Of a stretch of 64,000 bases of DNA, positions 3,945-34,309 are shown piece by piece. Numbering within the stretch: position 1 is the first letter of the stretch; the number at the start of each line of letters is the position of its first letter. Location of the stretch: the NCBI GenBank assembly GCA_905221615.1, contig CAJNDT010005791.1:196736-260735 (forward strand), in the 5' to 3' direction. Source of the DNA: Symbiodinium sp. CCMP2592. Lineage: Eukaryota > Sar > Dinophyceae > Suessiales > Symbiodiniaceae. The notes under the pieces were generated by a model that was not told where the DNA came from, did not search any database, and saw only the letters and a list, made by a program, of their open reading frames with translations. A program made the translations under genes and the position numbers.

Positions 3945-4367
3945 AGAGTGGGAGCTGGAAGCTTCTAGAAACTGTTTTTTCGAAAGCTTTTCCCTCGTTT
4001 CTCACTCCCGCAGCTGATGCTCTTGATAATCTGCAGACTTCTTCTGAAGTCGACAAGTTTGTGCAGACTCCAAACTTTTCTTCTGCACTCTAAACGCCTG
4101 TGCTGTTGCTGCTTTCTGCAAGAGAAGCAGATGCAGCGACACGTGCCTTGAAAATATTGCTGCTTTGTTTTGCTGAAATGATGTCGGAGATTGTGGCAGT
4201 AGTCCTGTGAAGTTTTCATTCGCTCTTTTGCAAGTAACAAGTCGTAGCCGTGATGCCTTTGTCCTAACATGTTCAGACTTTTGGCAAGAACATTGTTAAT
4301 GTGCTTTGGGGAAGACTGAAGACAGCAGTGCACGGCAGCATGAGCTCAACAATGGTGTGCTTTGTCT
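3945..4367. other. Non-coding spacer
   Basis: No gene is supported here. The stretch leads from the transposase exons into the tandem array and contains scattered CTTCTGAAG/CTTTGTT-type sequence without clear repeats. Confidence 0.4.
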
Positions 4368-9055: not shown

Positions 9056-10297
9056 GGTGGAAGGCTGGAGTGCGGGAGGGGAGGGAGTGAGGGAGGGAGG
9101 GAGGGAGGGAGTGAGGGAGGGAGGGAGGGAGTGAATGAGGGAGTGAGGGAGGGAGGGAATGAATGAGTGGTTGAGACGTTGATGCCGTCCGTATCTGCCG
9201 TATCGTGTTTCGCTAGTGGTTTCCATGATGTTCCATGCAAAAAATGCAATATTTGTCAAGAAAGTGAGAGTTCGCGGGGCCACCAGCGACGGGCAGAGTT
9301 CGAAAAAACTGGTCTATGAAGTGTTTGACACGTTCAGTCCGTCCGTATTTGCCGTGTCGTTGTCCGCTAGTGCTTTCCATGCAAAAAAGGCAAGATTGTC
9401 AAGAAACTGAGAGTGGCGCAGCCACCAGGGACAGTGCAGAGTTCGAAAAAAATGGTGTATGAAGTGTTTGACACATTCAGACCGTCCGCATCTGCCGTGT
9501 TGTATTTCGCTAGTACTTTCCGTGCAAAAATGCAATATTGTCTAGAAATTGAGAGTTCGCGCAGCAACCAGCCGCAGTGCAGAGTTCGAAAAAAATGGTG
9601 TGTGAAGTGTTTGACACGTTGAGGCCGTCCGTATCTGCCGTGTTGTATTTCGCTAGTGCTTTCCATGCAAAAAAGGCAACATTGTCTAGAAATTGAGAGT
9701 TAGCGCAGCCACCAGCCGCAGTGCAGAGTTCGAAAAAAATGGTGTATCAAGTGTTTGACACGTTCAGGTTGTGAGTATCTTCTGGGGGAGCGCGGGAGGG
9801 AGGGAGGGAAGGAGGGAAGGAGGAGGAAAGGAGGGAACAGGGAGGGAGGGAAGGGAGGGAGGGAGGGAGCGAGGGAGGGAGGGAGGGAGGGGCGGGAAAG
9901 AGAGAGAGAGAGAGAGAGATTACTGAAAGTGACAGTGAGAGCGAGAGTGAGAGTCAGAGTGCGAGTGCGAGTGCGGGTGAGAGTGAGGGTGAGAGTGAGT
10001 GTGCGCGTGAGTGTGAGCGAGAGGGAGAGAGAGTGCCCAGGTGATGGCGGGGTCGTCAAAGTCAGAGGCAGCCGCTTTTGAAGTGTAGTGCTCGTGACCG
10101 CTGCGGAGTCGTCAAAGTCAGAGGCAGCCGCTTTTGAAGTGTAGTGCTCGTGACCGCTGATCCTGTTTGTTTCCTGTTGGTCGAACCCACCCCTCCGGGG
10201 GGCGGGGCAGTGTGTCTTGCTGGCGCAGGGCTTGGGACCGCTTTATGGGGCTTGATTCCCACAGCAAGTGCTAGGAGGCCAAGTCGTGCCTGTAGAG
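9056..10297. repeat. Direct repeat copy B (1.24 kb)
   Basis: Near-identical to 17-1289 and in the same order: GGGAGGGA sequence, five ~142-bp units (about 9170-9787), purine-rich tract, GAGAGTGAG microsatellite, 56-bp duplication and tail. It lacks ~32 bp present in copy A. Its last bases (CCTGTAGAG) abut the internal breakpoint of a Copia 5' LTR. Confidence 0.85.
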
Positions 10298-10435
10298 AAC
10301 AGTTGGTTGCGAAGAAAGGTGTAAAAGTGCTGTTAGCTTTCACTGCTGTAGTTGCGTGACGTAGTCAGTCAGTCGGCTTGCACCTCCTTTTACTAAACCT
10401 AGAAGTGTGCCTCAAGGCGCGTTTGGGTTTTAACG
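10297..10435 (+). repeat. 5' LTR, truncated (R/U5 end only)
   Basis: GAACAGTTGGTTGCGAAGAA through GGGTTTTAACG matches 25520-25660 with very few differences (for example GTAGTTGCG versus GTAGCCTTGCG). The upstream ~340 bp expected from the 3' LTR are missing and replaced by repeat copy B. Confidence 0.85.
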
Positions 10436-10449
10436 TGGTAGCGGAGCTC
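10436..10449 (+). promoter_or_regulatory. Primer-binding site, initiator-tRNA-Met type
   Basis: TGGTAGCGGAGCTC lies immediately after the LTR end. Its first 12 bases differ at one position from TGGTAGCAGAG-type sites complementary to the 3' end of initiator tRNA-Met, the usual Copia primer. Confidence 0.7.
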
Positions 10450-15200: not shown

Positions 15201-16260
15201 TGATGATGATGGTGATGACCGTGAAGGGTTAGAGAGAACCACCCCGAACAACACCAAGCCCCCGGTAGACCCTGAAGAAGCTCTCCCCGAAAACATCGGT
15301 GCCGAAGCTAGATTGCGCCACCAACGTCAGGGTCATACCCCCTACTGGGGTGGCTGTCCTAGCTGTGTAAGGTCTAAAGGGCTAGCGCCCGCCCGAACAC
15401 GCAAAAGTGTCGACCCACTTGAGGTGCAGATGGATCAATACTGGTATCGAGGCATCCGTTTGATCGCTGTGGTGCACGTACCGACATATTGTATAGGGAC
15501 AGCTGCGACTTGTGTGGGAGATAACCGAAAAGTCACCGTGGGGAAGCTAGTCAGATTCCTCAAATCATTCGGCCTTAAAGAGGTTCATGTTGTACACGAC
15601 GGGGAACCGCTTTTAGCAGCTATGGCAGCCGAGGTCGTTGAGATTACAGGTGGGAGTTCAGTTTCTACGAAAACCTCGCCTAACAGACACGCCCCGGTAG
15701 CTGAGAGAGCGATCCGAACGCTTAAAGAAACAGCTTTGGCCAACGAGCTTCATGCTAAGGGTGTGAGTGGTTTGAAACTGTTGGCTAATGAGGAAGCGAT
15801 GGAATTGCTTCACAGCCACGCGGCTGCTTCACACAACCGGTTCGGAACGTCACAAGGTCAACTGTTGAGTCCTTTGCAGCGAGCTTTGGGTGAGAGTCAC
15901 ACGCCTCACTTGTTGTTTCCTTTTGCTTGCATCATGTACATTCAGCCCCCAGAACACCTTGCATCACAAGTTGATGGTCGATACGACATTGGTGCCTATC
16001 TCGGCCCCGTGATTGGTGGGCAAGGGCATCACTGCATGATCAGACTCTCAAATGGGTCTATGAAAAGATGCGTCGCCCGGGCTCTCAAGATGGCCTACCC
16101 AGTGACGTTCTCGTCGAACTTGTTACCCACTATCGCCGAGGCTAATCCTGATGAGCCTGATTATGAAAGCCTACCAGGGGTGGCCCTACCGTCCCGTTGC
16201 CGCAACCGGCGCCTGAATGGCTTGAAAACAACAAAACGGCACGTTGTCCGGGATGCTTAG
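12220..16260 (+). CDS. pol: Copia Pol part 1: protease and integrase
   Basis: An ATG at 12220 overlaps the gag stop and begins a 1346-codon frame. Residues about 10-65 include hydrophobic segments that look like membrane spans, odd for Pol. The protease active site is LLIDSGGSVHLVS (D93). The integrase has a His/Cys zinc segment (RHQRQGHTPYWGGCPSC, about residues 1031-1047) and a catalytic triad: D1072 in QMDQYW, D1127 in VVHDGEP and E1162 in VAERAIRTLKE, close to DD35E. Between protease and integrase, residues about 285-910 translate the antisense-of-frame side of an inserted cassette and have no domain. Tandem (V)GxxACxPVG repeats lie at about 15030-15140. The frame stops at TAG 16258, while the RT frame opens at 16197, offset by -1. 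Confidence 0.85.
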   Translation: MPERGQFFTMTALIFTFFMFCMVGCLICRLVACLSSPRQSCFTCACVAVAVIALSLASAPQPQLHARSSECLAFPTLALPAVTRDDPSYLLIDSGGSVHLVSQDMLGVTAKLIRELEVEPLFVSVANDQTMEITRYGLLELWFPCFEEGPSGTQAYREIRVQLEAYIAPNSISILSSGILQSLGFRIFHYDYDPQLHVAYPPGGLRFETELYANTSWLKACTYVEPDSTDGSVQSVEKGSVSSVVPSHPVGVGVGLETVGARVGRSVASSHLAHSCSEGPVEPVRDDGWVRPRDGPGHGGLDLPGSRVAGGADGALQRRGAADSGLFPGIVSSPHRAGLADSRGGRESADEFCEPFRRQPGGAAESVDSARIGGFSPRRSYEGWCQGTGQARLSRQPGRDYSCVRMAWEGGSSQATHARAGYDSYASRAGAEHGPYDRGSTGGGDGRGRVLGQVEHHSLQHCSWLECARSQLPERRYAGENCGSSPVQAASQRKEAGSVVPSTWGTAACDSTEGPRLDSYGAKYAPKGASHTTEVSDYTTKGANYTAKEPAKESAKGRASAAQHLDSTTSTEGRSEGCRSKGSKSSGSKAAEGSKSSGSKATEGSESSGSKAAEGRDYNNAGSYGNAGSYDIAGSCDNPGSFDNAGSCGNAGSCGNAGSCDIAGPCGNAGGNNNASGGDGGSCGAYEAHAFFGHRRSAPRLHGHGGCRDLRPQSVPCKSSSLKAAGEGPETTGATAGATVDGEYAGASSSSSSKVGANNNADAGSYADSGAHADARAPADPHGLPLQALSGPTDHNTEAEYSTSGAEFSADANANSSAFSPGASSNIEAVVHAAGSHTKAYTKEDDAGIQACAKATCSSGRSLYHRDAHARGDTSGAADQFGNGSETGTFASSACGPRRGRGNQQRQRPVTLAALEQQPKEGAREVLLQSAAVREVLPVGCPACVPVGSLACLQVGRAACVPVGSSACMSVGRPLIDSGDVGGAIGVEELEQLFDDDGDDREGLERTTPNNTKPPVDPEEALPENIGAEARLRHQRQGHTPYWGGCPSCVRSKGLAPARTRKSVDPLEVQMDQYWYRGIRLIAVVHVPTYCIGTAATCVGDNRKVTVGKLVRFLKSFGLKEVHVVHDGEPLLAAMAAEVVEITGGSSVSTKTSPNRHAPVAERAIRTLKETALANELHAKGVSGLKLLANEEAMELLHSHAAASHNRFGTSQGQLLSPLQRALGESHTPHLLFPFACIMYIQPPEHLASQVDGRYDIGAYLGPVIGGQGHHCMIRLSNGSMKRCVARALKMAYPVTFSSNLLPTIAEANPDEPDYESLPGVALPSRCRNRRLNGLKTTKRHVVRDA
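13079..14950 (+). CDS. Captured 623-residue proline-rich ORF inside Copia pol (different frame)
   Basis: A complete ATG-to-TAA frame lies wholly within pol in the +1 frame. The product starts MAGSDHEMDQDMEDSTF and ends with the acidic tail VDLEEVEEISSDSDL. It has an acidic N terminus (1-160), a TPPKGP/PKAAVPKPPKG repeat region (about 220-330), a TTPAPxxTPAP repeat region (about 330-400), a short region with more ordinary composition (AIEGVRLGFMDTGDAATFAH, about 410-435) and Met/Pro-rich repeats. No known domain was recognised. CCTGTAA occurs at 13066-13072 and again at 14944-14950, directly bracketing the ORF. The distance between them (1878 bp) is divisible by three, so pol stays open across it. 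It looks like a separate coding sequence inserted into pol. The composition alternative is GC-rich low complexity that leaves several frames open. Confidence 0.6.
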   Translation: MAGSDHEMDQDMEDSTFRVLGLPAEQTELSNDVALPTPVSSPELSPHLTEPDLPTAEVEESPPMSFASLFEDSPVEPPSPLILPGSEASPRGALTKAGARALARQDSPDSPVVTTPVYAWRGKVAPLKPPMPEPDTTPMPPVPEPSTAPMIVEAQEEETDEDECWGKWSTTASNIAPGSSAPAASSQSVVMQGKIADLALFRQRASERRQGVLSQVRGAQQPVTPPKAPGSTAMVPSTPPKGPATPPKSPITPPKGPTTPPKSPPKSPPKAAPAPPNIWTAPPPPRAAPKAAAPKVPKAAVPKPPKGPKAAVPKPPKGPKAAVPKPPKGATTTTPAPMATPAPMTSPAPVTTPAPLTTPAPVATPAPVATPAPVTSPAPVGTPVATTTPPVVTVDPVVPTRHMPFSAIEGVRLGFMDTGDAATFAHRASLAKAAASKQQGKAPRPPAPPPAPPLMENTPEPPRVPAQRSVPITMQMQVPMQIPVPMQMHVPPQIPMDYRYRPYPARPTTTPRPSTVPVAPSSAPMPTPTAAPSLRAPVPTSRPLFMPPAATLRPTPKKMMPASKHAPKPRAVVGVHYTIEMPTPEEIPVAPPTSLATAAKPAPLPPPLVDLEEVEEISSDSDL

Positions 16261-19106
16261 GTAGATCTCGCTTCCACTCTAGGCGTTGCAAAGTTCGCTT
16301 TCGTGATTACATCAGGGATACGCTCGGTGATCTTGACAATCCTGAACAGCAACAAGCCCCTGAAAAGCCTCAAGTAAAAATCAACCCGAACCCTGAAGTT
16401 GTGGAGTTTGAAGAAGAGAGCTTGGACTACGAGCCCAGTCTTCCTGGGTCTCCTGTTCCTGAGGATCTGCAGCACCTGGTGCCCGAACCCTCACAGGCAG
16501 CCCAAGACTCTGAGCTCCCTCAGGAGTATCTCCCTGGTGGGGACGTTGAGATGGATCAGGTTGATATGGACGACTACACTGTGCCCATGGATGTTGCTCA
16601 GGTCCCGGATGTCCTTGACAGTGCGAGCATGCCTCAGTTCATGTTCTCAGTGATTCCGGACCAGAAGCATCACCTGAGTCCTGTTGATTACGGTGAGGTC
16701 GGCTTGTTTGCTGCCCAGCTTAAGAGAAAAGCACCCGCTCAGCACAGTAACCCCGATGAGGGGGTAGCCATGCCTTTCGGTGATCGGGAGGTGTGGGTCA
16801 TCAAGCCCACTTCTGTGGTTGATGATGTCAGTGGCTTGCCTTTGGATCCTGAGAAAACGTGGGTTGGCATGCAGAAAGAGGTGTCTGCTATGCACAACTT
16901 GGGTGTCGGCAACGCCCGCACCTATGATGAGATTAAGACCCACTGCCAGGAGACAGGTGCCAAGATCATTAAGTCGCGTTTTGTCTTCACTGACAAGGTT
17001 GATGTTGACGATCAGCACATTGTGCGTGCGCGCCTTGTTGCAAAAGACTTTGCTTTCAATCAACCTTCGGCGCTTGACTTGGGCATTGCGAGCCAGACTG
17101 CTTCTGTGGAGGCCTTCAAGGCTTTCATCTGTCGTGTTGTCCAGGATACGCTTGTCCTTTGGGGACTTGACGTTTCGACTGCCTTCTTGTATGCCAAGTT
17201 GGTTCTTGATACCGTGCTTGAGTTGCCGGGATGCTTTCAGAACCTTGATGGCTCTAAGGTTTACGTCATCCTGGAGAAAGCCATATATGGCTTGAGATCG
17301 GCAGGCCTTTCGTGGCAGAAGCATCTTGCTGGACTTCTTGCTGAGTTGGGATTGTTTCCTTCTCTTATTGAACCTACGTTGTACAAAGGGTATTGGGGAG
17401 ACATCCTTGTGCTTTGTCTTGTGTACGTCGACGACATCTTGCTAGCCACAAGAACGAAAGAGGCAAACCAACAGCTTCTAGACTTCCTCATGGGCCGTCT
17501 TAAGGTCAAGTTGACTGGACGCTTGGATGAGGACGGCAGGATCGGATTCCTAGGCCGTGAGATAATCAAGCGTGGCCATGAGATCTTGTTGGCTGTGAAG
17601 AAAGAATACGTCGATTCGATCTTCGAGGCTTTTGGGTGGAGCCAGGAGAACCGCAGGAAGATGAAGCCCTGCACTGCACCACCAGACCTCCGATCGATCC
17701 TTGACAAGGAAGACCCCGAGAAGCCCTCCGAAGAGCTCTCCCCTGAAGCCGCGAGCCGCTTTAGAAGCACCCTAGGGAAACTAGGCTGGCTTGTGCAAAC
17801 CAGGGGGGATTTGTGTTATTTTCACTCCATGCTGTCTAGAGGTCAAGCCTGTCCGCGCGCTGTGCATGAGGATTGTATGCGTAAAGTGCTCCGTTGGCTT
17901 TTGGAGGTTCCCGATCTTGTTCAGGTCTTTCAGAAGGACTCCAAAGCTCAACCTGGGACTGCAACCCTCGTTGGATTCAGCGACGCTAATTGGGCCTCTG
18001 AGCGCTCTACTGGACGGAAGAGCACCAGCGGAGGAGTGATTTACCTGAATGGGAATTGTATCAAGACTTACTCGAGGCTCCAGCCTATCGTAGCACTCTC
18101 CAGTGCGGAGTCTGAGCTTTTCGCTATGGTTGAGATGGCGCGCGAGCTTGTAGGATTGGGGCAGCTTTTGGGCCACCTTTTCGAAAGCGTTGCGCAACCC
18201 CTATACCTGCCTACGGACAGCTCTTCCGCTCGCCAGGTCAGTATGATGTCCGGCTTCCTGAGAAGGATGCGTCACGTGGACCTTCGTCTTTGCTACTTGC
18301 AAGATAAGGTTGAGAACGGCGAGATCCTGGTTACACACGTCCCAGGAACAGATAACGTCGCCGACTTGCAAACAAAGAACTTGAGTGTCGCGCAAACTTG
18401 GTATCATATAGGACAGTTGTGTCTTGAGGAACGTCTCACCCGTAGTGACTATCTTCGAGGTGATGCGCCCCCGGTCCGTTGCCTTGTGTTTGCCGCGTTC
18501 AAAGGTCTGTTTTCTGCAAGCGTCGATGATCCTTGGAGTGTGTTGGTTGGTCGTTGTCGGTTGCAGACACCGCATTACATTGTGATGGTCGAGTTCTGCA
18601 CCTCTGGAGAAGCCTGGTTGACTAAGCTTGCTAGCCACTATGGCATCCATGCTATTCCCGTGACGGAAGAAACGGATGGGACTCTTCCGGAGACCATCGA
18701 GCTCATTGAGCACGCCCTTCGTGCGGCACACCGTCGGAACATGCATGTTGTTGTGTGGGCCTCGACGCCCTGTACCGGTGGTTCGCCTTGGCAGCGCTAT
18801 CACCAAGCCCGATCTGCAGATCACTATGATGAAAGGATGAAAGGACTTTTCACAGTCCACCGAAAGCTCTGGAAGAGCTTCTTGAAGCTAGTCAACACAT
18901 CTGATTCGGCAACTTGGGTCATTGAGTGGCCGCAACGTTGTGCTTACTGGGGATGGTCCGCTACGAAGTCATTCCTTAAGATCAATCCGCATGAGACCGC
19001 TCTTGTGCATGGTTGTGCGCGGTATGGTTGGAATGGACGCACTTCCTGTGAAGAAGGTTTGGAGGTTGTGCTCGAACAGTCATGTTCTCATTCACTGCAT
19101 GGATAA
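16197..19106 (+). CDS. pol: Copia Pol part 2: reverse transcriptase, RNase H and extra C-terminal domain
   Basis: 969 codons. It opens with a CPGC...FHSRRC segment (possible zinc site), then an acidic linker to about residue 190. The RVT_2 reverse transcriptase spans about 200-450: KSRFVFTDK, VRARLVAKDF, WGLDVSTAFLYA (motif A), AIYGLRSAGLSWQ and LVYVDDILLA with Y410-V-D-D. Ty1-type RNase H follows (about 590-745): FSDANWASE, KSTSGG, ALSSAESELFAM and the tail HVPGTDNVADLQTKNLS. Copia Pol normally ends there. This protein adds about 210 residues (760-969) with WASTPCTGGSP (about 855-865) and WVIEWPQRCAYW (about 904-915). The protein copies element RNA into DNA. It is joined to the integrase frame only by a -1 shift near 16200. 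Confidence 0.9.
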   Translation: MPQPAPEWLENNKTARCPGCLGRSRFHSRRCKVRFRDYIRDTLGDLDNPEQQQAPEKPQVKINPNPEVVEFEEESLDYEPSLPGSPVPEDLQHLVPEPSQAAQDSELPQEYLPGGDVEMDQVDMDDYTVPMDVAQVPDVLDSASMPQFMFSVIPDQKHHLSPVDYGEVGLFAAQLKRKAPAQHSNPDEGVAMPFGDREVWVIKPTSVVDDVSGLPLDPEKTWVGMQKEVSAMHNLGVGNARTYDEIKTHCQETGAKIIKSRFVFTDKVDVDDQHIVRARLVAKDFAFNQPSALDLGIASQTASVEAFKAFICRVVQDTLVLWGLDVSTAFLYAKLVLDTVLELPGCFQNLDGSKVYVILEKAIYGLRSAGLSWQKHLAGLLAELGLFPSLIEPTLYKGYWGDILVLCLVYVDDILLATRTKEANQQLLDFLMGRLKVKLTGRLDEDGRIGFLGREIIKRGHEILLAVKKEYVDSIFEAFGWSQENRRKMKPCTAPPDLRSILDKEDPEKPSEELSPEAASRFRSTLGKLGWLVQTRGDLCYFHSMLSRGQACPRAVHEDCMRKVLRWLLEVPDLVQVFQKDSKAQPGTATLVGFSDANWASERSTGRKSTSGGVIYLNGNCIKTYSRLQPIVALSSAESELFAMVEMARELVGLGQLLGHLFESVAQPLYLPTDSSSARQVSMMSGFLRRMRHVDLRLCYLQDKVENGEILVTHVPGTDNVADLQTKNLSVAQTWYHIGQLCLEERLTRSDYLRGDAPPVRCLVFAAFKGLFSASVDDPWSVLVGRCRLQTPHYIVMVEFCTSGEAWLTKLASHYGIHAIPVTEETDGTLPETIELIEHALRAAHRRNMHVVVWASTPCTGGSPWQRYHQARSADHYDERMKGLFTVHRKLWKSFLKLVNTSDSATWVIEWPQRCAYWGWSATKSFLKINPHETALVHGCARYGWNGRTSCEEGLEVVLEQSCSHSLHG

Positions 19107-19363: not shown

Positions 19364-19375
19364 TGATTTTCAATC
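19364..19375. repeat. LINE target-site duplication, left copy
   Basis: TGATTTTCAATC is repeated exactly at 25056-25067. The two copies bracket the LINE, as expected for target-primed reverse transcription. Confidence 0.8.
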
Positions 19376-19391
19376 TGTTTCGAAACTGGCT

Positions 19392-22300
19392 TTGTTTGTC
19401 CCAATCAGGGACCTTCAGGCTACTGGCCTCACTCACAACATAGACCAGTGGCTGGATGACATTTCGGCTGACGTGGTAGGTTCCACTGCTTCTAACACGG
19501 CTCACAAAGCCCTCAAGACATTTCGTATACTGCGAGATTCTCTTGCGGAACGAAATCTTCAGGTTTCCTTGGAAAAAACCAAGTTTCTTTGCTCAGATTC
19601 TGCCACCTCTCAAGTTCTTGAGCGTCTGCGTTCGGACCAAGATCCTGGCATTACTCTGTTAGCCAAAGACTTAGGGGTTGACAGCAATGCTGGCAGACGC
19701 CGCAGGCTTGCCACCTCTCTTGGCAGGCACAAGAAGGCGCAAGGCCGCCACAAGCGCCTTCGTGCTTTAGGTGTTGATTCGCATCGTTCACGCACTAGGG
19801 TTGTGCGCGGATCCATCATGACATGTGCCACCTATGGCCATCAGGCACAGGGTGTTAGCCCCAAACGGTTGAAATGGCACCGCGCTGTGCTGGCTGGTAG
19901 CTTAGGACGCCAACATCTTGGAGGAACCCTGACCGTCTTGGAGATGTTCTCCCACAGATTTCCGGATCCCCGAGAGCAGATCATTTGTGAGCATTTGCAA
20001 GTCTTCCTTCGTATTCTGGGCCGTTCTCCTTCCATTTGGGCGGAAGTTCAAAGGTCCTGGCCCTTGGTCAAATCCAGGTTGGAGGCTTCGCCTCACCCTT
20101 GGAAAATCGTTGCCGGACCCATTTCGGCCATGATTCAGTATGCCAGGGACATGGGATGGGATGTCCAGTCCCCGGAAGTCTGGCATATTGATGGCCACCC
20201 CTGGCCCGTTGACTTCAGCCCCTTTCTTTTTCAGGAGCTGCGGCGCAAGATTCGGTCTACCATCAAGGGCGAAAGATTGCGAGCCATCTCTTGCCAACAT
20301 GGCGGTCAAGGAGCTCAGGATGGTGTAGATTTTACAATTCATCGCCGCATTGCTTTAAAGAAGACCAAACGTCTGACCTTCTACCGGTCAATCTGGCAAG
20401 GAGCAGTTGTGCATGCGGGAAGTGGTGGCCACCCCAAGTGCCCTTACTGCAAGGATCGGGGCATTGAGTCAGACAACACACTACAACATGTGCTGTGGGA
20501 CTGCCCTAGATGGGCTAGACAGCCAAAGCTTCCCCGGCATCTTGAACAAATGCGTCAGTCCCATCCTGCGCCCTGCCTTTGGTTGCGAGCCCTTCCCCCT
20601 CTTGCCTACGTCTCCTCGCCACTTCAGAACGCTGAGGATAGGTATGAGGGCACCTGGCCGTCACAGACCTGGGACTCGGATTTTGTCATTGGCACCGATG
20701 CCAGTGGTGGCAAATTCTCTTCCGATCCCAGATTGAGGACCATTGGATGGGCTGTGATTCTAGCACGTAAAACGGGCCAAAGCATCACAGTCATCGCAAC
20801 TGCGAGCGGGGTTTTGCCTCGGCCGGCCACGGTTCTAGATGGGGAGGTCCATGCCATTGTCAAGGCCCATGAGCTTTGCCCGGGCCTGACGGATCTTACT
20901 ACAGATTCTCGGGTAGCTTGCAAGCAGGCCGCAGCTAAGGCGGTTACATCCAAGCATTCCATGTTTTGGAAACCCCAATGGCAGAGCATCTCCCCACAAC
21001 ACCTTCATTGGGTCAAGGCCCACTTGGATGTAGGAAAATTTGCTGAAAAGTTTGGAAAAGATGAGGTTTGGCGTTGGCATTTGAATCAGGAAGCTGACCA
21101 GCTTGCCGGGTCCAGGGCTGACCAAGCTTTGCACCCTGATGCCAGAAAGCAAGTCCGGCAAGTTGACACGCTGGTTTCCACCCTTTCCCAGCTACTTAGT
21201 CAGAGGGCGGAGATTTTGATTACTACGCAGGATAAGAAGACTATTTTCTGCAAGCGCCAGCCAAAACCTCCAACCCTTAACAAAAGGCAGCAGATTGAGC
21301 AACTCGTCAGCCAAACCGTATCTCCGCAGGGACACCAGTGGGAAATTCGGAGTCAGCACCCGACGAACCTCACAGCCATGTGTGGGAAATGTGGCCTTTA
21401 CCTGCAGCAAGTGGACCCTCCGTCACTGTTCCAGCAGGTCCTTGCACAGCCGTGCCTAGGAGGGGAAGGTCGTCCCCCGGAGCACCTGGCCTGTCACTCC
21501 TCCCATCAGCTTGTTTCCATTGGCAAAGCTTGGCAGTGTAAAGTGTGTGAAGGCATTTTGCCAGCGCGGGCAAAGAAAGTCCCGGGGCTCCTCCAGTCCC
21601 TGTGTGTGACCCGTAAACACACTAACAAACTGACTAAGTTCACCAAGAGTCTGTTAAGTGGTGTAGGGGTTCCGGAGTCACTACCTGCTTCCAAGAAGGC
21701 TAGCAAGCTTTCTAAGGAGACCCTCCCAAAAGCCCGAAACCTTAGCAACTTCTTTGCAACACCACTTAACAGGGTTGAGGCCACTCCCCTGCAAACCCTC
21801 ACTTCCGACGACCCTCCCCTGCAGAACATGGTCAGGATTGAGCCTCCCTCTCCTGCTGTCCGCGATCACCGGGACTCTTGTAGCCCGGAGCTTGGAGACT
21901 TAAGGGCTGCTAGCTCCATTGTTCGCAAGGTGAAGTTCCAAAATCCATCCAATCATTGTTATACCAATTCTTTGGTGGTTGGTTTCTTTTGGATTGATCT
22001 GCTCCTTTATGCCTCCAGCCCTTTTGCTGGATCCCCCATCCAGGGCATTCTGCGATGGTTGAAAGATCAACGCAAAGTCGAGCTGTGGCAGTCCCTGGTT
22101 TGGAAGAGATTAGTTGCAGGCCAGGGTCGATGGGAATCCCCAAACAGCCAGCATGATGTTTGTCAACTTCTCATGCACCTTTCTTCGGGGTTTCCCCGTG
22201 ACCTCTCTTGCGTTTCATGGAGAGCTCATGCTCCTAATGCACCTCACCACGAGGGTAACTTTTTCCCACTTCCTCTTCACCTCCCGGAGCACGAAGTCTC

Positions 22301-22667
22301 TATGAGGGAACTCCTGGCAAGTTGGCAACAAGGTGGAGAAGTGAAAATCCTCACTCACCCGCCTTTGATTGCATTGCAGCTTTTGAGGTTTGTTGGGGAC
22401 GGGGGGGGTTTTCGGAGGCTCGAGAACCCAGTTGGTTTTGAGGATCCTTGTGTGCTTGAGGGATTGGATGGGGAACTTCTTCGTTACTACCCCAAGGCCG
22501 TGGTCTCGCATTTTGGCAACTCCCCGACCTCTGGACATTATCGTACATTACTACTCCCCTCCAAGCTTATTACTGATGATGGGGTAGGTGCTGTTTGCGC
22601 CAAGCCTGCAGATGTAGCCTGGTCTAAGTGCTACTCGTACCTGGTTTTGCTAACCCTCCATGTCTGA
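19392..22667 (+). CDS. LINE ORF: RT C-terminus, RNase H and ubiquitin-specific-protease-like domain
   Basis: The frame is open from the insertion edge (19376) to a stop at 22665-22667, about 1091 residues from 19392. It begins at the RT catalytic box (DQWLDDISADV, equivalent to FADD) and thumb. A zinc-like segment follows (CPYCKDRG...HVLWDC, about 350-372), then RNase H (GTDASGG with D436, LDGEVHAI, LTTDSR, NQEADQLAG). Cys pairs in CGKCGLYL and CKVCEG (about 663-720) suggest another zinc module. The C terminus (about 845-1090) matches USP peptidase boxes in order: Cys box FQNPSNHCYTNSL (C856), QHDVCQLLMHL, PPLIALQLLRF, His box HFGNSPTSGHYRTL (H1049), then ITDDGVGAV and YSYLVLL. USPs remove ubiquitin from proteins. 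Here the module would be part of, or cleaved from, the LINE polyprotein. Cys and His are present; activity is inference. Confidence 0.85.
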   Translation: MFVPIRDLQATGLTHNIDQWLDDISADVVGSTASNTAHKALKTFRILRDSLAERNLQVSLEKTKFLCSDSATSQVLERLRSDQDPGITLLAKDLGVDSNAGRRRRLATSLGRHKKAQGRHKRLRALGVDSHRSRTRVVRGSIMTCATYGHQAQGVSPKRLKWHRAVLAGSLGRQHLGGTLTVLEMFSHRFPDPREQIICEHLQVFLRILGRSPSIWAEVQRSWPLVKSRLEASPHPWKIVAGPISAMIQYARDMGWDVQSPEVWHIDGHPWPVDFSPFLFQELRRKIRSTIKGERLRAISCQHGGQGAQDGVDFTIHRRIALKKTKRLTFYRSIWQGAVVHAGSGGHPKCPYCKDRGIESDNTLQHVLWDCPRWARQPKLPRHLEQMRQSHPAPCLWLRALPPLAYVSSPLQNAEDRYEGTWPSQTWDSDFVIGTDASGGKFSSDPRLRTIGWAVILARKTGQSITVIATASGVLPRPATVLDGEVHAIVKAHELCPGLTDLTTDSRVACKQAAAKAVTSKHSMFWKPQWQSISPQHLHWVKAHLDVGKFAEKFGKDEVWRWHLNQEADQLAGSRADQALHPDARKQVRQVDTLVSTLSQLLSQRAEILITTQDKKTIFCKRQPKPPTLNKRQQIEQLVSQTVSPQGHQWEIRSQHPTNLTAMCGKCGLYLQQVDPPSLFQQVLAQPCLGGEGRPPEHLACHSSHQLVSIGKAWQCKVCEGILPARAKKVPGLLQSLCVTRKHTNKLTKFTKSLLSGVGVPESLPASKKASKLSKETLPKARNLSNFFATPLNRVEATPLQTLTSDDPPLQNMVRIEPPSPAVRDHRDSCSPELGDLRAASSIVRKVKFQNPSNHCYTNSLVVGFFWIDLLLYASSPFAGSPIQGILRWLKDQRKVELWQSLVWKRLVAGQGRWESPNSQHDVCQLLMHLSSGFPRDLSCVSWRAHAPNAPHHEGNFFPLPLHLPEHEVSMRELLASWQQGGEVKILTHPPLIALQLLRFVGDGGGFRRLENPVGFEDPCVLEGLDGELLRYYPKAVVSHFGNSPTSGHYRTLLLPSKLITDDGVGAVCAKPADVAWSKCYSYLVLLTLHV

Positions 22668-22693: not shown

Positions 22694-24453
22694 ATGGGTA
22701 AAGGAAAAGGGAAGAACAAGCCAGGGAAGGGGCAGAATGCCCCTTTCGAGGACCCGGTAACGGAACAGCGGTACCAGGCCCTCTTGCAGCATCGTTTTAG
22801 TGAGGGCAAACCTGCTATTTCGAGATCAAGGTACTCCAGGCAAAGCCAGCATTCAGGTACCGACCGGGAACCTCCGGCTTCTGGTCCCAACTTGTCAAGG
22901 TCGGTGGAGGCCCCTATCACGAGGCCAAAAGCCGCACCCAAGACGGGGGTAGCCCGAACCCCAAGCGGCAACGCACAGAGGCCCAGGCTGAGGAGGCCTC
23001 GCCAAGAGCCTCCGGTTCCAATCTGCAGGCTGAGGTGCCCTCGCCTTCCAATGCTGATGAACCAAGCCTAGCCCCCACAACCCAGGTTGAGCAGGTCTCG
23101 CCTGCACCAACCTCTCCTTTGGGGCCTGAGCAGGATGAGGTGCTGACCTCTCCTAAGCAGGAACCTGCCCAGAGTTCTCAGATTGAGGTTCCTTCACCGG
23201 CAACCAAGCCGGATACAGAAGCTGGTGATCCAGGCCCGGCCGCCACAACCCAGGTTGAGAAGGTCTCGCCTGAACCGGCCTCTCCCTTGGAGCCTGAGCA
23301 GGAAGAGGTACTGACCTCTCCTAAGCAGGAGCCTGCCCAAAGCTCCCAGGTTGAGGTTACCTCACCGGCGCCCAAGCCGGATACAGAATGCCCGGCTTCC
23401 AAAACACAGGTTGAGAAGATCTCACCTGAGCCAGCCTCTTCTTTGGTGCCTGAGCAGGTTGAGGAACCCTCACCTCACCCAGATCCTGTCCCCAGTGCCC
23501 AGGTTGAGGCAAACTCACCGGCCACCACCGAAGCTCCATCCCCAGCGCAGTCCCATTCAGGCCCAGATCCGGGAATCAAGGGCGAGGACCTCAGAGGGGA
23601 ACCAGATCCGGAGGTTCCCTTGGAGCTTCTTTTCAAGCAGCCCCTGAAGATCCCGAGATCCCTCCGAGGCGTGTCCCTAAACAAAAAAGGCACGTCTGGC
23701 ACGCCTTGGACTACTTACACTCCGGCGGAGCTGGAGGACGAGCTTGGAGGGGTATGGGCCGTATTGGGGGTAGGTGGCAGTCGTGTCACCTTGGAGCCCC
23801 CGGCTCAATGGGGACTTGGAGCCGAAGTTCAGGTCCTCAAGCTGGGGCTCGCCGAGGCCATGGACCAGGAGCAGATTTTTCTGGAGGGATTATCCAGAGA
23901 TTTCACCTTTATTCCTCGACCGGGGTCCTCTGGTGAAGTCCTGCTCACCTTGTCAGAGAATGGCCATGGCCGGGGTTTCTCCCTTCGTGCCCGCGCGGTT
24001 TTCTACAGGCGGGTCATCCCTGTGGCTTCTCCGCAGGGAAGGCTTAGGACACTTGATGTCCCGGACCTCCTGGCCTTGTTAAGTGTGGTCGCGTTTTTGT
24101 GTGCCTGCCATATCCGCTTGTCGGATCTTGGGGAGCACAACGTAGGTTGGGCCCTCCCGACCTTGGCGCGCACACGCGCCGAGAACATGGCGCTCCAAAG
24201 TGCAAAGCTGCGCTCGGCCGACTACGTGCAGGTTTGTTTGTACGACGGGGGCCGCTGGAGAGAAGCGCAGCACAAGCACTGGCCTGGAAAGGCGGCAACC
24301 AAGGGGCTCCTTGGCCTATGTGCCAAACATGAAATGTTTGGGCCATGGGTGGAAGAACAAATCCATCTCTATGGCTCCCCCGAGGTTTTGGCCAAGGTCT
24401 TCCTCCACCGCCTCCAGGACTTCCCGCACCACTTCGAGACTCGGGGTTTTTAA
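22694..24453 (+). CDS. Second LINE ORF, unknown protein (one frameshift)
   Basis: An ATG at 22694, 27 bp after the USP ORF, gives a basic start (MGKGKGKNKPGKGQ). The frame then moves to another register between about 22810 and 22985 and continues to TAA near 24451. The middle has about three imperfect 44-residue repeats built on TQVEKVSPEPASPLEPEQEE, VLTSPKQEPAQSS and SPAPKPDTE. The C-terminal ~240 residues look folded (for example GVWAVLGVGGSRVTLEPPAQ, DLLALLSVVAFLCACH and WVEEQIHLYGSPEVLAKVFL), but I recognise no family. In most LINEs the non-enzymatic ORF precedes the enzymatic one; here it follows. It could be a nucleic-acid-binding partner, or a separate gene carried by the element. Confidence 0.55.
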
Positions 24454-24593
24454 CCTACCTCCCTTTGTGCTACAAGGTTGGTATGGTCATTCCCCTGAGC
24501 AACCCTTGGAGCAATCCGGATGATACAACCTGGCAGCTCGTTCCGATCCCAAGTTTGGACACCCCAACGAGTTGAGAAACCCCTTGAAGGGTC

Positions 24594-25010
24594 TTAAGGT
24601 GAGGTGACTCCCTTAAGCTTGCAAGCCGCTCCAGGGTGAGGAGACTCCCCTTTCCAGCTTTAATTCAACGAGCCAATTTGGTCACAAGCCTAAGTCTGCT
24701 CAAGGTGAGGTTACTCCCTTGCTCTACAAGCCAACAACGTGAGGAGACTCCGTGGACTTGGAGAAGCTACAAGGTTGAGATACCTCCCTTGCAACCCCCC
24801 TTTTGTTGCCGCCTAGCTCAAAGTGAGGAGACTCCTTGGAAGGTAGGCTGAGGGCAACCGCAGTAGGCAGGTGAGCTCGACCAGTCTGTGCCGAGGGTGC
24901 TGTTTAAGGACATCACCTGATGTCAGACTGGTCTAGAGAAACTCGCCGCTCCCAAAGTGGACTAGGCTCAGCACTCAGGGTGAGGTGACTCCCCTCACAC
25001 TTCGTCTCAC
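24594..25010 (+). repeat. Dispersed GTGAGGWGACTCC motif, about seven copies, LINE 3' end
   Basis: Variants lie near 24599 (GGTGAGGTGACTCCCTT), 24636, 24702, 24739, 24774, 24822 and 24980. Spacing is irregular (35-160 bp), so this is a repeated motif rather than a tandem array. The arms GTGAG...CTC could form small hairpins. A role in template recognition by the LINE RT is possible but unproven. Confidence 0.6.
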
Positions 25011-25055
25011 CCTGACTCGAACTGGGCTCAGCCCAGCGGACCGACCGCTCGAGCG

Positions 25056-25067
25056 TGATTTTCAATC
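25056..25067. repeat. LINE target-site duplication, right copy
   Basis: Exact copy of TGATTTTCAATC at 19364-19375. Confidence 0.8.
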
Positions 25068-25160
25068 CTATAATGGTGCCCCTGTGTCTCGCCAAGGTCA
25101 GGAACACTTTCCGTTTTTCTCCTTTGTGAGTTTTAGAGAACCTTAGGTGTAGCTGTGAAC

Positions 25161-25178
25161 GGTAGGAGTAGGGAAAAG
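25161..25178 (+). promoter_or_regulatory. Polypurine tract before the 3' LTR
   Basis: GGTAGGAGTAGGGAAAAG is 16/18 purine and directly precedes TTGTCTGTCTG. That suits plus-strand priming at the 3' LTR boundary, with TG at 25180 as the LTR start. Confidence 0.55.
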
Positions 25179-25179
25179 T

Positions 25180-25660
25180 TGTCTGTCTGTCGGTCGCTGC
25201 GCTCACGCTTCCTGTCTCACCTTGCGATGAAAGTGATCAGTGTCAGAAGCGTGTCCAACCGGAGTTTTCCTCACGAGTTTTCACGAAGAACGGTGTTTCC
25301 CTGAAGCATGATGAACATCAAAGTGTTTTCAGTTTGTTTGCTGTGAGAGCGGACTTCTAGACGAAGTCCGGGGAACACCTGGGCCGTGTAGCAGAGTTGC
25401 CAGTGCAGAGAAGCCGTTAGGAGTCCTTAGGACTTACCTCGGAAGTGAGTGTGCTGAAGTCTCTGTCCGCGCCCCGTTTCACTTGGCTCAAGACTTGCAC
25501 TGCGTGACAAGCGCGTGGTGAACAGTTGGTTGCGAAGAAAGGTGTAAAAGTGCTGTTAGCTTTCACTGCTGTAGCCTTGCGTGACGTAGTCAGTCAGTCG
25601 GCTTGCACCTCCTTTTACTAAACCTAGAAGTGTGCCTCAAGGCGCGTTTGGGTTTTAACG
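25180..25660 (+). repeat. 3' LTR (~481 bp)
   Basis: The end (25520-25660) is repeated as the truncated 5' LTR. The start is inferred from the polypurine tract and TG dinucleotide, giving an ordinary Copia LTR length. It contains TTGGCTCAAG (25483-25492), identical to the last 10 bases of the dinoflagellate spliced leader, preceded by CCGT six bases upstream. Confidence 0.6.
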
Positions 25661-25898
25661 TAAGCTGCTCGTCGGAAGCTCGTAGGCAGCTCGCAGGCCG
25701 CTCGCATGCGGCTGCGCGCGAAAAGCCCCGTTAAATCCCGTTTTGCAAGCACTTTAGAGCCCCTAAGATCGCTCGAGCTGTAGGCCGTAGGCCCGTGAAT
25801 CGACAGTGCTCCGAAGTACCGAATTCTGACCTATGTTTCGAACCTAGGCCTGTAGCTAACATGGAGCGGAGCGCTGGAACACCCTCCCCAGAGAGAGA
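25661..25898. repeat. Right half of a long-TIR MITE
   Basis: Matches 34073-34309 nearly base for base, from TAAGCTGCTCGTCGG to CCCCAGAGAGAG. The Copia 3' LTR abuts it, so the Copia element was probably inserted into the middle of a MITE copy whose left half is no longer present on the other side. Confidence 0.8.
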
Positions 25899-27499
25899 AA
25901 ATCGACCAAACCCCGCGCGAGACAGATGAGACAGGCTTGAGACAGGTTTAGTCTGTTTAGACTCTTGTCTCAGCTGTCTCGCCTGTCTCCCGGCCCTCCA
26001 GCTCCAGCGCCCTTGGTGTCAGACAGGCAGCGGAAAGCCCGCCTCTCTCAGTGCTTCTCGGTCAGTGCTTCTCGGTGCTGCTCGGTCGAGCGAGCGTAGG
26101 CTTGCGGAACGAAGCTGACGGGCTTGTCGTGTATGTCCAGCCGTCGTCCCCGCAGTTCCCGGTCGCCCTTCTTGCCGGCCAGCAGGGCCCTGGAGTCTCC
26201 CTCATTGTGTTCGATCCACACAGCCCTCCCGTGTACTCGCCGAGAGCCAGCGCGCGAGTTTTCTTTTCGAACAGCGATTTCGGCGTGTCCCCACCTAGGT
26301 TTTGGGCACGATTTCGGCCGAATCGCACCTTCCCTGTCGACTCGGTAGAAAATTGCGGCCGTGGGCTTGTGGGCGGGACAGAGCCTGGTAAGACAAGCGA
26401 GACAACGAGACAAAGCGGTTCTCGCAATGTCTCGCTTGTCTCCCTCTCTTTCTGGGAAGCCGGGCTGGTAAAACAGAATTTGTCTTGCTTGTCTCGCTCG
26501 TCTGTCTGGGGGGTTCGGGCTGGCAGAATCAGAAGAGAGTTTGTCTCAACGTCCCGCTTGTCTCCCTCGTCTCTCTGGGGGCCCGGGCTGGTAGGAGGGA
26601 GTTTGTCTCACTGTCTCGCTTGTCTCGCCCCCCTTTTGATTGGCGGGCGGCAAAGGGGGTTTTGGAGCGGCGGCATGTTCATGGCAGTAGTCTCGTTGGG
26701 CTCGCCGACTTTCGCAGTACCATTTTGTTTGAGTGCTTTCGTCTGTTTGTGTTTTTGGGTGTGGTTTTTGGTTCACGGCACCCTAACCGCCCTTCGTCCC
26801 CGCAGTAGGTTTGATCCACGGCTGCCCTGCGAGTGCCTTGTCACCCCCACCCCGTAGTTCTCTCCCGATCGGCCATGCATGTAAAGTTACGGTCACCGCC
26901 GCCGTCACCGTCGTCACATCGTCGTCCGAGCCGAGCCTGGTCCGTCGAGCGCATCGTCCGAGCTGAGCGCTTGTCGAGCCCCCCGCATCGTCGATCCGAG
27001 CGTGCCGCCCGTCCGAGCCGTCGCTCGCGCTGACAAGACGCACGCAGGGCACTTGGCATGCCGTCCTGTTGACATCCAGAGCACGAAACCGGCTGAGGGG
27101 TTCGGGGCTTCAGGGGTTGCTGGGTGGGAGACGCCAGTCGGGATTGGGGGTTTGGGGGCTCTGAAGCTCGAGTTTTTGCCGCTTGGCAGACCTGGCACCT
27201 TGCCTCTAAACCTCCCCTTGAAGAAAAGCTTTTTCCTACTGGCAGTTGTTTCCCATGCATTCGAAATCAAAGCTCAAATGTGCGCGCTGTCAGTTTCCGC
27301 AAATCGTGGCAGCCCATTTTTGAGTCAAAGGGCTACTCATTCGGCTCAGCACAAGATATCCACAGGTCGCTAGACTGGAGTAGACGGGAAGGCCTTCCGA
27401 GTCTGCGAATCTGTCCCAGGATGCCGTAAACTCTTGGTACCCCAATACCCTAAACCATCTAAACCGTTTAGAGTTTTGGCTGAGAGCAACTTTCGCGCC
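25899..27499. repeat. TGAGACA-type palindrome, GTCTCGCTTGTCTC minisatellite and CGTCG-rich sequence
   Basis: At about 25920-25995 lies a palindromic element of the same family as those at 31.6-32.2 kb. At about 26390-26640 a ~65-70-bp unit repeats about three times, with GTCTCGCTTGTCTC and GGGCTGGTA in each. At about 26880-27010 the DNA is CGTCG/CCGAG-rich. The 268-codon ORF at 26051-26857 overlaps these repeats and shows no domain. A short peptide at 27256 (MHSKSKLKCARCQFPQ) has a CxxC but nothing more. No gene is supported before 27500. Confidence 0.55.
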
Positions 27500-33670: not shown

Positions 33671-34309
33671 CTCTCTGGGGAGAGTGTTCCAGCTCTCCAC
33701 TCTGTGTTAACTACGAGGCTTCTTTCAGGACACAGGCTAGAATTCGGTACTTTGACGGCTTGTCGATTTTGAGCCCTAGAAGCTGCAGGGCTCGGAATCT
33801 TAGAGGCTCCAAAGTGCTTGCAAAGAGCGCGAGCGGTGGTTTGCAGGCTGCGAGAGAGCGCATGTCGTGCTTCCAACCTGCCGGAAATCCAGGCGCCGGG
33901 TTCAGGAGCCTGCCGGGCTGGAGGCTTGCGAGGGATCGAGACCGACTGCTTGGAAGGCCGGCTGGTAAGCTGTTCGGACGGTAGGCCGGTACGGTGTTCG
34001 GACAGCAGGCCGCGGTAAGCTGTTCGGACAGTCGGCTGGTGAGCTGCTCGTAGGAAGCTCGTAGGCAGCTCGTAAGCTGCTCGTCGGAAGCTCGTAGGCA
34101 GCTCGCAGGCCGCTCGCATGCGGCTGCGCGCGAAAAGCCCCGTTAAATCCCGTTTTGCAAGCACTTTAGAGCCCCTAAGATCGCTCGAGCTGTAGGCCGT
34201 AGGCCCGTGAATCGACAGTGCTCCGAAGTACCGAATTCTGACCTATGTTTCGAACCTAGGCCTGTAGCTAACATGGAGCGGAGCGCTGGAACACCCTCCC
34301 CAGAGAGAG
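33671..34309. mobile_element. MITE-like element with ~145-170-bp terminal inverted repeats
   Basis: The left end CTCTCTGGGGAGAGTGTTCC and the following ~145 bp are the inverted, diverged counterpart of 34135-34309, which ends GGAACACCCTCCCCAGAGAG. Shared marks are CAGAATTCGGTACTT and GCTCTAAAGTGCTTGCAAA. The centre holds short repeats (GGTAAGCTGTTCGGACAG, GCTCGTAGGCAGCTCG). It has no coding capacity. A target-site duplication is not evident. Confidence 0.75.

Follow-up and report, generated by a model that had tools for sequence, protein, structure and literature searches.

Do retrotransposons without long terminal repeats (non-LTR) encode a deubiquitinase of the ubiquitin-specific protease (USP; peptidase C19) class, and if so, what could such an enzyme do for the element? 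The question arises from a stretch of 64,000 nucleotides of the dinoflagellate Symbiodinium sp. CCMP2592 (assembly GCA_905221615.1, contig CAJNDT010005791.1, positions 196,736 to 260,735; hereafter the window), in which a copy of a long interspersed nuclear element (LINE) ends its pol frame in a domain that a sequence-only reading had taken for a USP. That a USP-fold domain belongs to this LINE pol we now regard as practically certain, and we describe below its occurrence, its selection, and an unusual gene overlap that accompanies it in related families.

The frame (19392–22667, with the stop codon at 22665–22667) encodes 1091 amino acids, lies on the forward strand like all features of this LINE copy given here, and runs from the end of the reverse transcriptase (RT) through an RNase H-like region, a Cys-rich region and a linker into the USP domain (21894–22664). 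All five boxes named in the sequence-only reading, NHCYTNS with C856, QHDVCQLLMHL, PPLIALQLLRF, SGHYRTL with H1049 and the final DDG...YSYLVLL, are present with the right residues and in the right order, the Cys box preceding the His box and both catalytic residues being in place. In an alignment of 33 domains, comprising 30 loci, the window, and the proteins P0009 and P0010, the catalytic Cys (codon 21957–21959) and the catalytic His (22536–22538) are each conserved in 31 sequences and the third catalytic residue, Asp (22578–22580), in 30; the catalytic residues are retained in 29 of the 33. The Asn five residues ahead of the Cys (21942–21944), which we take to be the oxyanion-hole position of USPs, is found in 31, and the QHD box (22149–22157) has its Q in 32 and its D in all 33. 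The Asp follows the His at a spacing of 14 residues in the window domain, compared to 17–20 in eight other sequences measured.

Because the scores of the window domain as a single sequence are weak (Pfam UCH at E 0.001 and 19.2–19.4 bits for the region alone, E 0.032 for the whole 1091-residue frame), the evidence for a USP comes from the family profile and from the fold. UCH is matched at E ≤ 0.001 by 25 of 26 aligned family members, the best at 4.3e-14, and relatives P0005 and P0010 stand above the curated cut-off with 39.7 and 40.5 bits. A profile of family members retrieves USP46 from the PDB at 9.5e-15, and in the alignments with both USP46 and USP12 the Cys box and the His box are matched. 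Indeed, the predicted structure of the domain is a USP fold, whose structural neighbours are USP46, USP12, USP30, USP2 and USP7, so that the earlier proposal of a USP-class domain in a non-LTR pol, distinct from proteases of the OTU and Ulp1 types, is borne out by C19 matches of profile and structure alike. From these cellular USPs the LINE domain departs considerably, being only about 15–20% identical in structural alignments, shorter (approximately 240 residues vs. about 310), in the window devoid of the CxxC pair, and part of a retrotransposon pol. It is highly likely that the LINE domain can hydrolyse ubiquitin.

The pol to which the domain belongs consists of an apurinic/apyrimidinic endonuclease (APE), the RT, then either an RNase H-like region or C2H2 zinc fingers, and a compact USP at the C-terminus. 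In the intact copy L031 (protein P0003) a single frame of 2098 amino acids holds Exo_endo_phos (E 5.3e-5), RVT_1 (8.8e-8) and, at its end, the USP; against the Exo_endo_phos cut-off of 24.5 bits, P0024 (29.0) and P0005 (26.0) lie above and L031 (23.5) just below. Two further proteins match both human LINE-1 ORF2p and USP46 in the PDB, P0010 at 8.4e-18 and 0.0019 and P0005 at 9e-13 and 0.0028, respectively. The placement of the USP downstream of the RT, as first proposed, holds for L031, while the window copy retains only the end of the RT, and the RNase H assignment is a matter of motifs: GTDAS, DGEV, TTDS and AD (20682–21125), with the residues D, E, D and D invariant in three aligned sequences and with no Pfam or PDB profile match to the region. 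Several features of an APE-type LINE are seen, namely a LINE RT, an APE endonuclease upstream in one frame (in relatives), a constant 3′ end, and differing flanks. With window positions 24200–26200 as query, each of the 39 other scored genome copies stops at query position 1461–1468, and flanks differ in all eight copies compared. Moreover, 5′ truncation is variable, three LINE start points being found behind one and the same Copia sequence.

The domain is by no means confined to the window copy, since many families in this genome carry it within long open frames, and proteins from outside have it too. Searching 1.098 Gb of genome with the window domain gave 144 scored matches among 1818 candidates, which is a lower bound. 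In 62 of these the match covers the domain, from query position 1 or 2 as far as 267, with 94–100% identity, and 25 of the 62 lie in an open frame of exactly 2098 codons; 31 are divergent (26–37% identity), and the remainder are fragments or less similar sequences, stops occurring in some of them. A second search, with a divergent domain, scored 142 of 2105 candidates, again a lower bound. At 60% identity the 33 aligned domains fall into 16 clusters: that of the window, one from outside (P0010), and 14 others of the same genome. Among 118 RT matches, 117 of which were examined, 43 have a listed USP match about 2.2–3.0 kb downstream on the same strand; a sample of three from the other 74 showed the domain each time where it should lie, at 190, 178 and 96 bits, the 96-bit match belonging to a copy with a broken frame. 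From these 43 and three we extrapolate that the USP is near-universal in this LINE group. Outside relatives were sought among 5.8 billion proteins. P0010, with precomputed RVT_1 and UCH, was the sole hit of one search, and a second gave P0023 (172 member sequences) and P0024 (2073 amino acids, 490 member sequences), whose USPs share 67% and 59% identity, respectively, with the USP of the window's family. A domain-profile search added ten proteins of smaller size, among them one with the label Symbiodinium sp. CCMP2592 and another with the label Skav, presumably Symbiodinium/Fugacium kawagutii.

Computation also shows that the USP is under purifying selection. The ratio of nonsynonymous to synonymous substitution rates (dN/dS) is 0.067–0.267 in the 15 listed pairs whose dS is below 1, which are not independent of each other, and reaches 0.55 in pairs with larger, near-saturated dS. 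Within the window's family, the corresponding polymorphism ratio (pN/pS) is 0.20 for the USP (27 copies) vs. 0.14 for the 1500 bases upstream (22 copies). Between the window's family and P0024, identity is 77% in the RT, 59% in the USP, and 34% in the linker ahead of it.

The families with zinc fingers contain an additional gene, which we call ORF-X: between the fingers and the USP a second open frame, in the +1 register, overlaps pol (L034–L063; e.g., L033:5530–6687 and L032:5701–6882). Of 30 loci, 26 have a longest +1 frame of 340 codons or more, and in 27 the end of that frame lies no more than about 120 bases from where the USP match starts. Its product is conserved, with a Gly/Lys-rich N-terminal part and a C-terminal domain of approximately 230 residues that was modelled with a predicted local distance difference test (pLDDT) mostly of 73–95 and has no PDB match at E ≤ 0.001. 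Over the overlap, dN/dS is lower for the +1 frame in 14 of 15 pairs, ranging over all 15 from 0.08 to 0.52, compared to 0.49–2.97 for the pol frame (frame 0). The high values of the latter arise because the +1 frame is constrained, and are no sign of positive selection. When the +1-frame codons were shuffled among synonyms to obtain an expectation, 304 stops were expected in frame 0 over the 30 loci and 27 were observed, with none in 25 loci, these loci being related and hence not independent trials; the exceptions with a broken frame 0 are L039, L043, L044, L045 and L053. An initial run with 16 selected loci from 12 clusters had given 10 stops against 161 expected, with none in 13 loci. The third frame was low (P ≤ 0.05) in three of 30 loci, all of one cluster. 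That frame 0 stays open is most simply explained by selection for ribosomes to pass through the overlap and on into the USP. Given that the pol frame avoids stops although selection acts on the +1 gene, it is very probable that the USP is made as the C-terminal end of pol. In P0016, a deposited gene model of Symbiodinium sp. CCMP2592, an ORF-X-like part runs directly into a USP, perhaps through an annotation join across two frames. The window's own family has no such overlap, and its downstream Lys/Gly-rich frame is without detected homology to ORF-X.

What, then, would the enzyme be for? Computation establishes the USP fold, the catalytic Cys, His and Asp, purifying selection, presence in many families, and fusion to pol. 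We infer that the substrate would be ubiquitin, that the domain would act as a deubiquitinase, and that its target would be the element's own ribonucleoprotein (RNP). In this proposal, the host would attach ubiquitin to the RNP of the element (pol and accessory protein), the USP at the C-terminus of pol would remove it in cis, and the pol–RNA complex would thereby evade proteasomal turnover until target-primed reverse transcription is complete. Host ubiquitylation has been described to restrict mouse LINE-1, whose ORF1p is polyubiquitylated and degraded through the action of TEX19.1 and UBR2 (PMC5570191). We assign to the whole explanation, an active deubiquitinase borne by pol and acting in cis so that the RNP escapes the proteasome, a probability of roughly 0.5, and the odds that RNP protection is its main role appear equally balanced. 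About evenly poised, too, is the broader reading in which the deubiquitinase is near-universal in this dinoflagellate LINE group and the linker of the zinc-finger families (approximately 340–460 codons) overlaps an accessory gene and avoids stops solely so that translation can reach the USP. Jointly with this, and with the same even balance, the amino acids of the linker would be free while its openness is selected, and the USP would be a means by which LINEs have long countered ubiquitylation by the host.

Several observations weigh against such an explanation. In each Pfam scan the window domain stays below the curated UCH cut-off (23.9 bits), and as a single sequence it finds nothing better in the PDB than USP7 at E 0.19; with the full-length protein of the intact copy, P0003, no PDB match appears at E ≤ 0.1, its relative P0004 as a whole has no UCH match at E ≤ 1, P0023 and P0024 have none above the cut-off, and P0016 lies below it too. 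In L059 (G000:C3602) the Cys, His and Asp of the USP are all replaced and yet the pol frame is open over 2648 codons, so that catalysis is not required in every lineage, L059 being possibly a non-catalytic one. Furthermore, what supports protection from ubiquitylation by the host was obtained with a mouse element and not in dinoflagellates.

Other roles have therefore to be weighed against the protection of the RNP. The USP may instead act at the insertion site, deubiquitinating repair factors or chromatin (e.g., PCNA, FANCD2 or histones) so that target-primed reverse transcription completes, a role we hold possible but rather improbable: the domain is fused to an endonuclease-RT that works at the target, its nearest structures are USP46 and USP12, and USP1, a relative of these two, acts on FANCD2 and PCNA, but the nearness to USP46 is not clear-cut, with USP30 and USP12 less than one Z unit away. 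A repair-linked role has likewise been proposed for OTU and Ulp1 in DNA transposons (PMC2836005). Somewhat less probable still is that the domain acts on another modifier such as SUMO, NEDD8 or an ISG15-like protein, or only binds ubiquitin; structures of USP18–ISG15 and USP36–Fubi are among the structural matches, and the open frame of L059 would suit mere binding, which the catalytic residues kept in most of the aligned sequences make unlikely in most lineages.

Since no other protease-like domain was found in what is a very long polyprotein, the USP might also cut its own translation product, as some viral papain-like proteases do. This we consider improbable, given that P0003 and P0024 share seven conserved GG dipeptides, none of them in the linker ahead of the USP, and that the unconstrained linker residues of the zinc-finger families argue against a fixed cut site there; cut sites elsewhere in pol are conceivable. 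The same count leaves the earlier suggestion that the enzyme cleaves ubiquitin fusions without positive support, and no ubiquitin domain turned up in the Pfam-scanned proteins of the window and its relatives. Finally, a chance likeness of motifs, or a host USP gene captured beside a single LINE copy, would be in keeping with the weak single-sequence scores of the window domain; it was rejected as exceedingly improbable on the grounds of presence in multiple families and structure, next to the profile matches, selection and outside relatives.

The window copy itself is defective. A Copia-type element (RVT_2) extends to 19375, and the LINE begins at 19377 inside its RT, matching L031 from position 4031 at 99.2%, and runs to 25661, the constant 3′ end (...GGGTTTTAACG). 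It thus lacks the endonuclease and most of the RT, both of which L031 has, and the first RT part left is WLDDISADV (19449–19475), which we take to be the catalytic DD box. Downstream of pol lies a Lys/Gly-rich frame (22694–24453) with its ATG 26 bases past the USP stop, split into two frames here and seen as a single frame over the stretch available in L031. The Copia-type frame (16197–19106, RVT_2 at 1.1e-24) contains in its C-terminal part ASTPCTGGSPW, which to our eye is a little like the PPC motif of methyltransferases. Three different LINE positions adjoin a single Copia point (window 19375–19377, C5084:87469, and L067), which in C5084 and C5074 meets the LINE elsewhere than in the window. 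Such junctions look as one would expect if the LINE RT had switched templates to Copia RNA. A second LINE 3′ end is found at 10297–10436 (142 bases, 98.6% identical to 25520–25661, followed by different sequence), and 239 bases are exactly repeated in direct orientation at 25659–25897, starting at the LINE 3′ end, and 34071–34309. On C4701, C5084 and C922 (G000), USP matches of the window's family are spaced by about 10.06–10.09 kb on one strand, which suggests head-to-tail LINE arrays; on C764 a LINE 3′ end piece without its last 0.6 kb sits upstream of the next copy.

Mobile elements with acquired enzymes have been described before. OTU is found in Ginger1 and Helitron, and Ulp1 in Ginger1 and Mutator (PMC2836005); like the LINE USP these are cysteine proteases of the ubiquitin pathway in mobile elements, but they belong to other protease families and to DNA transposons instead of LINEs. 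The nearest precedent found, by its description, is Trichomonas vaginalis XP_001314237.1, in which peptidase C19 is joined to transposase_11 (PMC2836005), being a single named protein with a DNA transposase and no retroelement. SymbioLINE-Dnmt, a Symbiodinium LINE (PMC5890265), shares with the present element an acquired enzyme domain under purifying selection, but its DNA methyltransferase lies in a separate upstream ORF, and the words ubiquitin, protease and peptidase are absent from the main text of that paper. Insect R1/TRAS LINEs likewise have an extra enzymatic domain at the C-terminus of ORF2, which is a viral-type helicase instead of a deubiquitinase (PMC6338049). Searches of open-licence PMC papers brought up no LINE-encoded USP, an earlier description in Repbase or subscription papers being possible. 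What seems new here is a LINE with an enzyme class for which no report was found, together with the unusual overlapping frame.

In the overlap, selection favours translation through a frame in which the encoded residues are of little consequence, and the signature of stop avoidance could expose hidden C-terminal domains in other elements. If the proposal is true, the gene overlap would be an unusual one, the sole function of one frame being to connect to an enzyme encoded downstream, and a deubiquitinase encoded by a LINE would point to a ubiquitin-based conflict between retrotransposon and host far outside animals.
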